A stretch of 64,000 nt of DNA from Nitrosospira multiformis. Its GTDB lineage: Bacteria > Pseudomonadota > Gammaproteobacteria > Burkholderiales > Nitrosomonadaceae. Below are positions 11,096 through 13,962 of this stretch, piece by piece. The notes under the pieces were generated by a model. It searched no databases. It saw only the letters and a list, made by a program, of their open reading frames with translations, and was not told the origin of the DNA. The stretch spans positions 1 through 64,000 of the forward strand of contig JAFKJB010000009.1 of NCBI GenBank assembly GCA_017306155.1. The letters are read 5' to 3'. Numbering within the stretch: the stretch's first letter is position 1; every line of letters begins with the position of its first letter. A program made the translations under genes and the position numbers.

Positions 11096-11776
11096 TCAGG
11101 TTGATGCTCCAAGAGGGTGGGCGGGTAGAGGATTAAGGGGGGTAATTGCAGTCGAGAAGGCTTCCAGCATCGGCTGTATTGCCTGACGCTTCAATTTCAA
11201 TGCTGCCTGATTGATGATCAGCCTGGATGAGATCGGCATTATTTCTTCGACAGCCTTGAGATTGTTCGCTTTAAGCGTATTACCGCTGGAAACCAGATCC
11301 ACGATTGCATCCGCCAGTCCTACCAGGGGAGCAAGCTCCATTGATCCGTAGAGCTTGATGAGATCGACATGCATTCCTTTTTCCGCGAAGTGTTCGCGTG
11401 CCGTCTGTAGATATTTCGTGGCCACTCGTACCCGCGCACCCCGCCGGACTGCGGAATCATAGTCAAAATCGCTGCGTACAGCCACCATCATGCGGCAGCA
11501 GGCGATATTCAAATCGAGGGGCTGGTAAAGGCCCGCGCCGCCGTGCTCCAGCAGCACATCCTTTCCTGCAATGCCCATGTCCGCCGCGCCGTATTGCACA
11601 TACGTCGGTACATCCGAAGCACGCACGATGATGAGCCGTACATCATCGCGATTGGTGCCGAGGATCAGCTTGCGTGATGTTTCGGGATCATCCAGCGGAA
11701 TAATGCCCGCGGCTTTCAGCAGGGGGGCGGTATCGTCAAAAATCCGTCCCTTGGAAAGGGCGATGGTGATGCTCAT
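11096..11776 (-). CDS. hisG: ATP phosphoribosyltransferase, short form
   Basis: The committed step of histidine synthesis, joining ATP and PRPP. The core [20 protein letters not shown] and the PRPP-binding loop [13 protein letters not shown] are conserved. At about 226 residues it is the short (HisGS) form, lacking the C-terminal histidine-binding domain, and in this family activity needs the HisZ subunit, for which I see no gene here. Adjacent ATGs at 11779 and 11776 are both possible; an upstream TTG at 11842 is unlikely. It is the first gene of the his run and is divergent from the outer-membrane protein gene. Confidence 0.92.
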
Positions 11777-11982
11777 CATGAAGAATTCGTAAAGGCCGTA
11801 TTTTACCGCAAAAGTCATCGGCCGGTTTCCCGGACAATTCAAGGACGAATGACACCCTCGAAATTTCAGCAGCGCGTTCCGGGAAATGACATCAGCAAGC
11901 CGTAATTTCCGGAATTGCTGAACAGGATGAGATGCAGATGAAGTGCCAGGATACTTCCCGAAACTCTGCTCAAGGTAATTTC

Positions 11983-12092
11983 TTCACAATTTCATCACAA
12001 ATGAACCACATTATCATCACATATCCATAACGTATACTTCACGCCATCTTCACAATAGCTTCACATATGGTTCACACGAGATTCACACTTCG
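11983..12092 (+). promoter_or_regulatory. ten-unit 11-bp direct-repeat array (TTCACA motif)
   Basis: A hexamer close to TTCACA recurs at an exact 11-bp step, starting at 11983, 11994, 12005, 12016, 12027, 12038, 12049, 12060, 12071 and 12082. Six units are TTCACA or TTCACG and three are ATCACA or ACCACA. One (12027) is degenerate (ATAACG). The spacers are mostly AT-rich in the first half. All copies face the same way, so this is not a set of CRP-type dyads. One repeat per helical turn is the geometry of OmpR/PhoB-family response regulator sites. The array sits between hisG and the outer-membrane barrel gene and ends 64 bases before the barrel gene start. Confidence 0.85.
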
Positions 12093-13311: not shown

Positions 13312-13962
13312 ATGGTAACTTCAGGCAAAAAAATGGAGCAGAAGCTGGAGCATCTCACAAGCTCGGAATTGCGAGCCTTGATAGCGGAACTGAGGCCCCT
13401 GGAAGTGTGCGATCTGGTGGAGCGCGAGCATCAGGTACTGGCTGGGCGACAGATGCTCGAATCCTTGTCGGAACGACTGCGGCAGGCCAAAACGGAAGCA
13501 AGGGCGGCTCACCGGCAGTTATGCAGCTGGCGCCTGTCTCACCCGCTTCGAACGCGACTGCATTATTGGGGATGGATGCCTTCCCGGTTTCTTGCGGAGC
13601 GCGAGTCGGGCAAATCCCGATTGGAGACGGAAGTACTGCAATTGACGCAGCGTGTTTATCTTGCTGCCGAACATGCCAAAAAAATAGAGCGTGAGGTGGA
13701 GGTGCAGATTCAGCTGGAACAGGCGTCGGTAAGGGAGCGCATTGCCGAACTGGAATACCTGTGGCAGACGAGGGTTGCCCAGGAACAGATGGCGCGGAAG
13801 CAGACACAGGAGCCGGACAGCAACCTGTCGCCGTTCATGACGCGCAAGCTCATGCGGGAGATGAAGGCACAGGACCTTCGTCTTGCGGAGCCTGGCCACA
13901 CTTCAGCCGGCTCGTCCCACAACACCGGTACGGTAACCGAACCGAAGAGTTATGGAAGATAG
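13312..13962 (+). CDS. hypothetical coiled-coil protein
   Basis: A 216-residue, highly charged protein rich in Glu, Arg, Gln and Leu. Helical heptad patterns cover roughly residues 25-70 and 95-160. There is no signal peptide and no membrane segment. I find no catalytic motif and do not recognise the family. It begins 21 bases after the outer-membrane barrel gene on the same strand, so the two are probably co-transcribed from the array-containing promoter region. A second ATG at 13333 is possible; the upstream GGAAG at 13295 favours 13312 only weakly. Confidence 0.6.
   Translation: MVTSGKKMEQKLEHLTSSELRALIAELRPLEVCDLVEREHQVLAGRQMLESLSERLRQAKTEARAAHRQLCSWRLSHPLRTRLHYWGWMPSRFLAERESGKSRLETEVLQLTQRVYLAAEHAKKIEREVEVQIQLEQASVRERIAELEYLWQTRVAQEQMARKQTQEPDSNLSPFMTRKLMREMKAQDLRLAEPGHTSAGSSHNTGTVTEPKSYGR

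Follow-up and report, generated by a model that had tools for sequence, protein, structure and literature searches.

The locus considered here raises the question of what is bound at, and what is achieved by, ten short DNA words repeated head to tail at exact 11-bp steps in front of a single gene. The window that was analysed, 64,000 nucleotides of a Nitrosospira multiformis contig, contains one such array (Table 1). A sequence-only reading had described ten TTCACA-like units without a break in phase, nine of them keeping at least four of the six hexamer positions, and all facing one way and so neither a CRP site nor a palindromic operator. Each of these points was borne out, and the CRP palindrome, TGTGA-N6-TCACA, fitted at 7 of 10 positions at best and was rejected. 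On a score that was fitted to the motif after the motif had been seen, the array reached 19.9; the highest value among 60 dinucleotide-shuffled copies of the 64-kb window was 5.0, and among 5000 shuffled copies of the local 211 bp it was 5.8. It is a real feature, far beyond chance. No further array scoring at least 5 was found in the window on either strand. Tandem Repeats Finder reports the first two units only (11977-12000), and misses the others because their spacers differ.

Table 1. Features of the array locus, in window coordinates
Feature	Position	Strand	Sequence	Basis or remark
hisG (ATP phosphoribosyltransferase, PF01634), divergent upstream neighbour	11096..11779	-		Pfam
Ten-unit array, 11-bp head-to-tail, core TTCACA (general form TNACA)	11982..12091	+		motif reading and score
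Unit 1	start 11982	+	CTTCACAATTT	6/6 TTCACA positions
Unit 2	start 11993	+	CATCACAAATG	5/6 TTCACA positions
Unit 3	start 12004	+	AACCACATTAT	4/6 TTCACA positions
Predicted -35, weak, 16-bp spacer	12011..12016	+	TTATCA	sigma70 scan
Unit 4	start 12015	+	CATCACATATC	5/6 TTCACA positions
Unit 5, degenerate	12026..12036	+	CATAACGTATA	3/6 TTCACA positions; identical in orthologues L002-L005
Predicted -10, unit 5/6 junction	12033..12038	+	TATACT	sigma70 scan; register as in small-gene arrays
Unit 6	start 12037	+	CTTCACGCCAT	5/6 TTCACA positions
Unit 7	start 12048	+	CTTCACAATAG	6/6 TTCACA positions
Unit 8	start 12059	+	CTTCACATATG	6/6 TTCACA positions
Unit 9	start 12070	+	GTTCACACGAG	6/6 TTCACA positions
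Unit 10	start 12081	+	ATTCACACTTC	6/6 TTCACA positions
Downstream gene, PF20507/DUF6733 protein, 377 aa	12157..13290	+		Pfam E 2e-56

The long open reading frame downstream has an alternative start, ATG 12067, that falls within the array. The start at ATG 12157 is more likely because two homologues align over residues 1-377 from that codon. PF20507, a family of unknown function, is the sole Pfam family above cut-off for the gene. An AlphaFold model built from ten homologues reached a mean pLDDT of only 48; in this low-confidence model the N-terminal part is helical and eleven strand segments lie from residue 175 onward, in the C-terminal half, and at such a pLDDT an outer-membrane barrel is no more than plausible. 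Directly 3' of the gene lies an ORF of 216 aa (13312-13962) that is charged and possibly coiled-coil, and for which a Pfam search gave no family above cut-off.

DUF6733 homologues occurred in 9 of the 61 genomes searched, all nine belonging to Nitrosospira, and array units stand upstream of every one of the ten DUF6733 loci located in them, so that the 11-bp period is indeed conserved in relatives. The number of units ranges from 3 to 13. Five loci (L001-L005) have 10, 10, 10, 13 and 10, three others (L006-L008) have 6 with 4 more out of phase, 6, and 8 with 4 more out of phase, and L010 has 7, or 6 by a later score. The three-unit locus (L009/L011) is that of genome G017, in which the gene was found as two pieces. 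Among four gap-free orthologous arrays the TNACA core was variable in 4 of 50 columns as opposed to 26 of 60 other columns (Fisher 3e-5), and therefore the period and core are kept as the spacers drift. A functionless, neutral tandem duplication would sit well with the variation in unit number among orthologues, yet it is extremely improbable when the core columns are conserved, the spacers have diverged and the same motif precedes many unrelated genes.

Head-to-tail half-sites of this kind are a feature of operators bound by OmpR/PhoB-family regulators, and the one-strand 11-bp repeats support the earlier assignment of the array to that kind. As in those operators, the half-sites advance in 11-bp steps and lie upstream of, or over, promoters; the difference is in number, with ten to thirteen units at L001-L005 and two to nine at the other sites found here. 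The PhoB box also consists of 11-bp direct repeats recognised by a regulator of the OmpR/PhoB family. The array is alike in both respects, whereas the CTGTCA-type consensus fits it at 12 of 18 positions at best and the gene downstream is one of unknown function; a Pho box is not supported by this fit. RpaB and RpaA are OmpR-type response regulators of cyanobacteria, and RpaB, which has direct-repeat sites, both represses and activates. The likeness here is again in regulator type and in the direct repeats; the RpaB motif fits best (12/16) outside the array units. The ResD motif, compared as another look-alike, fitted at 14 of 18 positions, and a literature search for it found nothing. In PMC4832192 the PhoP box of Mycobacterium tuberculosis is described as direct repeats of the 7-bp TCACAGC with a 4-bp spacer, an 11-bp period, and PhoP as a cooperative tandem dimer that can be extended to a trimer and tetramer. 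The PhoP box has the same period as the array and fits it at 10 of 14 positions at best, in a different organism and at different genes.

Taken together, the best explanation is that the array constitutes an operator with many sites for an OmpR/PhoB-family response regulator, most likely the hemE-linked one discussed below, and to this explanation as a whole we would give a probability of about two in three. The properties of such operators that were found are repeats of about 11 bp on one strand, sites before several genes and at predicted promoters, and, with the exceptions given below, co-occurrence and linkage with a PF00486 regulator. Binding by an OmpR-type response regulator of one identity or another is predicted from these with high confidence.

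The motif is not confined to DUF6733 genes. The genome that contains the window has 20 pairs with at most one mismatch and 4 for the reversed pattern, and in 23 Nitrosospira genomes the exact three-unit TNACA pattern gave 182 overlapping matches, one array being counted several times, against 11 for reversed-pattern controls. The motif is thus a recurrent one, and the three-unit pattern is frequent in Nitrosomonas as well. Some of these matches, TGACAGTTTTGTTACA forms for instance, resemble Pho boxes in reverse orientation and add noise to the counts. Forty regions were fetched from among the three-unit matches listed, and their first genes encode BBP2-like porins (one representative run, PF07642), small secreted coiled-coil proteins (two checked, neither with a Pfam match), one-helix peptides of about 35-43 residues, a glycine/histidine-rich secreted protein (by reading) and an AmoC of the divergent, stand-alone type (one checked, PF04896). 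Across the family Nitrosomonadaceae the motif has 2 to 9 units at other genes, and for this reason the window array stands at the long extreme of a regulon instead of forming a separate kind of switch. The earlier contrast of ten units with the usual two to four therefore holds for the DUF6733 gene and fails as the mark of a distinct type.

Arrays precede divergent stand-alone amoC genes in six genomes (G000, G003, G008, G009, G013, G019). The idea that they drive the amoCAB operon proved wrong, since the arrays precede these stand-alone copies instead. Only 4 of 22 amoC loci (L126, L131, L132, L149) have an array within 700 bp; the 18 with none at that distance include L139 and L154, where amoA follows amoC (by reading). 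The divergent AmoC3 of N. europaea is reportedly part of a stress response. At five loci (L093, L079, L062, L067, L091) the arrays before stand-alone amoC or leader ORFs are themselves preceded by a GGGAA(C/T)(T/C)T-like sequence, which resembles a sigma-E -35 element. Array and amoC are separated at L064, L079 and L093 by short ORFs (about 25-31 aa, MKxGKLLAISYF...), and similar ORFs follow the array at L062, L091 and L099, where amoC was not recognised; their products look like the signal peptides found on the small secreted coiled-coil proteins. The conserved peptides of about 35-43 aa under arrays form two families (L066, L072, L078, L089 and L073, L083, L085-L087, L098), each with one probable membrane helix, and the second is multi-copy in G016. 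A nitrosocyanin gene lies 0.7 kb from the L070 array, which has only three weak units, too weak a link.

How the array might act was approached through its position relative to predicted promoters, using a simple sigma70 scan, without shuffle control and grouped by eye, of 45 loci: 36 of the 40 fetched regions (all but L070, L082, L095 and L097) and nine DUF6733 loci, the ninth being the neighbouring array L010. The peptide, one-helix and coiled-coil groups together comprise 18 arrays, and in every one of them the predicted -10 directly follows unit 1, with 2-5 units downstream; the predicted -35 of these small-gene arrays is mostly TTGACA-like at 17-18 bp spacing, L069 having TGGGCA. Such a geometry is what would be expected if the array were purely repressive, the regulator covering the -10 and the early transcribed region to shut the gene and extra units only strengthening binding, and the five window units downstream of the predicted -10 point the same way. 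Against this, 7 of 11 porin and glycine/histidine arrays (L063, L068, L096, L101, L074, L080, L092) have every unit upstream of the predicted -10, and the other five window units are likewise upstream, with a weak -35. Pure repression is accordingly a minority possibility. In the remaining porin and glycine/histidine arrays, L094 has three units up and one down and L077, L090 and L100 differ, and the amoC/leader group shows the unit-1-then-(-10) arrangement in only 2 of 7 cases (L064, L091).

The window array brackets its predicted -10 with five units on each side. All of L001-L005 retain the string at this -10, CATAACGTATACTT. Of eight DUF6733 loci, however, just two (L001 and L004) had TATACT picked by the scan, and a third (L007) had a TATAAT in a similar place. 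With units 6-10 in or near the 5' leader, if the predicted promoter is right, they could also be bound as RNA by a repeat-counting protein. This is very unlikely: the strict 11-bp phase fits the geometry of the DNA helix, the predicted -10 has half of the window units and the majority of the porin-group units upstream of it, and two-unit sites occur beside a response-regulator operon. Under the operator explanation, a winged-helix response regulator would bind TTCACA half-sites head to tail, one every 11 bp, and once phosphorylated could occupy the array cooperatively. RNA polymerase might then be helped by units that precede the -10 and blocked by those that follow it, and with five units on either side the output might be graded or biphasic. 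That the window promoter is both activated and repressed is nevertheless a tentative suggestion, one that we would sooner doubt than accept.

If an OmpR-type regulator is responsible, it should be sought among few candidates. The genome of the window (98.3% complete) encodes four PF00486 response regulators, on contigs C5, C22, C23 and C25. The C5 regulator is PhoB-like and is followed by a PhoR-like kinase (by reading). Family-wide profiling covered the other three PF00486 regulators. Of the 81 family genomes, 3 had the C25 regulator (cut-off E 1e-60) and 8 had that of C23 (cut-off E 1e-70); both were rejected as the array binder because, being rare in the family, they cannot explain a genus-wide motif. 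The C22 regulator, which adjoins hemE (G000:C22:53619-54296) and is accompanied by a histidine kinase, was matched in 67 of the 81 and alone among the three is family-wide. With orthologues defined by at least 69% identity, the 66 genomes possessing one contained 408 array matches and 46 controls, and the 15 genomes without contained 13 and 3. Presence of the regulator and number of matches were associated overall (Mann-Whitney 4e-7) and inside g3, Nitrosomonas (7e-4), in tests that ignore phylogeny. None of the best 25 of 98 matched NCBIfam models reached its cut-off for this regulator; its third-best PDB sequence match is RpaA. Five of six regulators compared share the recognition-helix stretch SDTLRSHMH and the sixth has SDTLRSQMY, so that the stretch is nearly invariant in a set of which five members are 62-78% identical to the first.

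The hemE-linked regulator and kinase also have the motif beside them. Taking as a pair two TTCACA words 11 bp apart with at least 10 of 12 positions matched and at least 4 in each, 60 regulator loci were examined, a set that includes L026 and leaves out L166, whose fetched piece held no regulator, and the kinase end could be parsed in 52, the other eight being dropped. A pair was present within 400 bp behind the kinase stop at 31 of the 52, a few of them weak hits (e.g. L185, L188), compared with 3 in the reversed control and 0 on the other strand; a nearby pair was absent at 21. Two of the dropped loci (L170, L172) nonetheless have the pair. Outside the family it was found at 3 of 8 parsed loci, belonging to two other families (L157, and L158 and L159 from one genus), and at L160 it lies upstream of the regulator on the other strand. 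In G161, of another family and with a regulator 62% identical, the only exact pair of the genome sits at the regulator-kinase locus. In a scan of named genomes, covering the first 29 of 80 loci, the Nitrosospira and Nitrosomonas loci had the pair at L217 (same contig as L204) and L218, not at L216, and pairs flanked 5 of 26 distant relatives, two behind the kinase (L225, L226) and three upstream of the regulator (L224, L227, L231), with one hit in reversed sequence. At L226, a Nitrosomonadales MAG with a distant regulator (52%), a 4-unit 11-bp array lies 46 bp behind the kinase gene.

It is also possible that another DNA-binding protein, such as PhoB, another winged-helix regulator or an unrelated head-to-tail binder, owns the operator, and that the link to the regulator-kinase pair arises through a neighbouring carbon gene. 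Regulator orthologues do exist without arrays: there are no three-unit arrays in four genomes whose orthologues, of other families, are 69-73% identical (G127, G170, G178, G105), and an excess of pairs is clear in G105 alone (7 vs 1). G087 and G100 have the regulator and no array match, and in G018 (93% complete) arrays are present and the regulator was not found. Genus g2 has the regulator and few arrays (8 genomes, 11 matches vs 7 controls); pair counts were 38 vs 31 in five g2 genomes and 18 vs 18 in three g4 genomes. Four regulator-bearing Nitrosomonas had 111 pairs vs 25, and five Nitrosomonas-like genomes lacking the regulator had 60 vs 31, so the regulator-lacking set is not clean. An order-wide sample of 150 genomes gave 9, 4 and 3 array matches in three family genomes, 0 in two family genomes lacking the regulator (G027, G030), and 11 matches in 9 genomes with 3 controls among the other 145. 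The profiling set of three OmpR-type regulators likewise leaves room for a different binder, PhoB or a non-OmpR protein. On the other hand, the pair follows the regulator and kinase also at loci lacking a recognised carbon gene (G161, G127, G170), the next gene in G161 being that of a periplasmic binding protein, the Pho box fits poorly, and the other two OmpR-type regulators profiled are rare in the family. We therefore regard a different binder as rather improbable, and predict from these genomic associations that the protein acting at the array is probably an orthologue of the hemE-linked regulator.

The surroundings of this regulator may indicate what it senses. An inorganic-carbon gene was present in the fetched piece at 45 of 60 regulator loci, comprising 31 Sbt-type, 7 DabA, 3 SulP and 4 carboxysome-type carbonic anhydrase-like genes, classes that were assigned by short N-terminal strings, with Pfam run on representatives only (L156 PF05982; L026 PF10070; L171 and L184 PF00916; L178 PF20686, weak at E 4.5e-7). 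At loci where the carbon gene is the next ORF of at least 150 codons, the distance from the kinase to its start is 48 to 1465 bp. Because unrelated carbon genes share one slot behind the regulator and kinase, inorganic-carbon status may be the signal of the pair, a proposal for which we consider the chances even; the SulP proteins may carry sulfate instead. The earlier proposal of PhoB and phosphate is not upheld, given the Pho box fit, PF20507 as the only Pfam family and a genomic partner that is another two-component pair beside carbon genes, and of the two nutrients inorganic carbon is the more probable signal. The suggestion of nutrient uptake perhaps survives in spirit, if from its genomic context the nutrient is taken to be inorganic carbon, and not as phosphate.

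Which regulators connect ammonia oxidation with the supply of carbon in nitrifiers is little established. A search covering mostly titles and the beginnings of abstracts, with subscription papers largely outside it, found no literature on such a regulator or regulon. The passages of PMC5960693 and PMC6967387 that were consulted contain nothing on a regulator of these genes, and the main text of the latter uses neither "two-component" nor "response regulator". It is tempting to speculate, and we do so with reserve, that a family-wide two-component system of ammonia oxidisers senses how much inorganic carbon is available and uses TTCACA arrays of 2-13 units to adjust together the genes for carbon uptake (Sbt, DabA, SulP, carbonic anhydrase), those for outer-membrane channels, and the divergent amoC that stands alone. 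The response of each promoter might then be encoded in how long its array is and where it lies with respect to the -10, and a row of regulators on the long window array could wrap the promoter. One regulator pair, one DNA word and a list of targets are now testable in cultured Nitrosospira, and the natural arrays of 2-13 units at varied offsets from the -10 are a series in which position and copy-number effects of OmpR-type regulators can be studied.

Arrays also occur near carbon genes at other loci. In Nitrosomonas an array lies upstream of dabBA-like genes at L115, at distances of 0.6 and 2.0 kb, and another lies 0.5 kb upstream of a carbonic anhydrase gene at L125. At L166 a SulP gene stands beside an array-like pair, with no regulator in the fetched piece. 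In a further Nitrosomonas locus (L109:1575-4839) an eight-unit array is followed by a minus-strand ORF for an IS3-like transposase (by reading) and then, at 2.2 kb, by an Sbt_1 gene, and it seems from this arrangement that an insertion has separated the array from the transporter.
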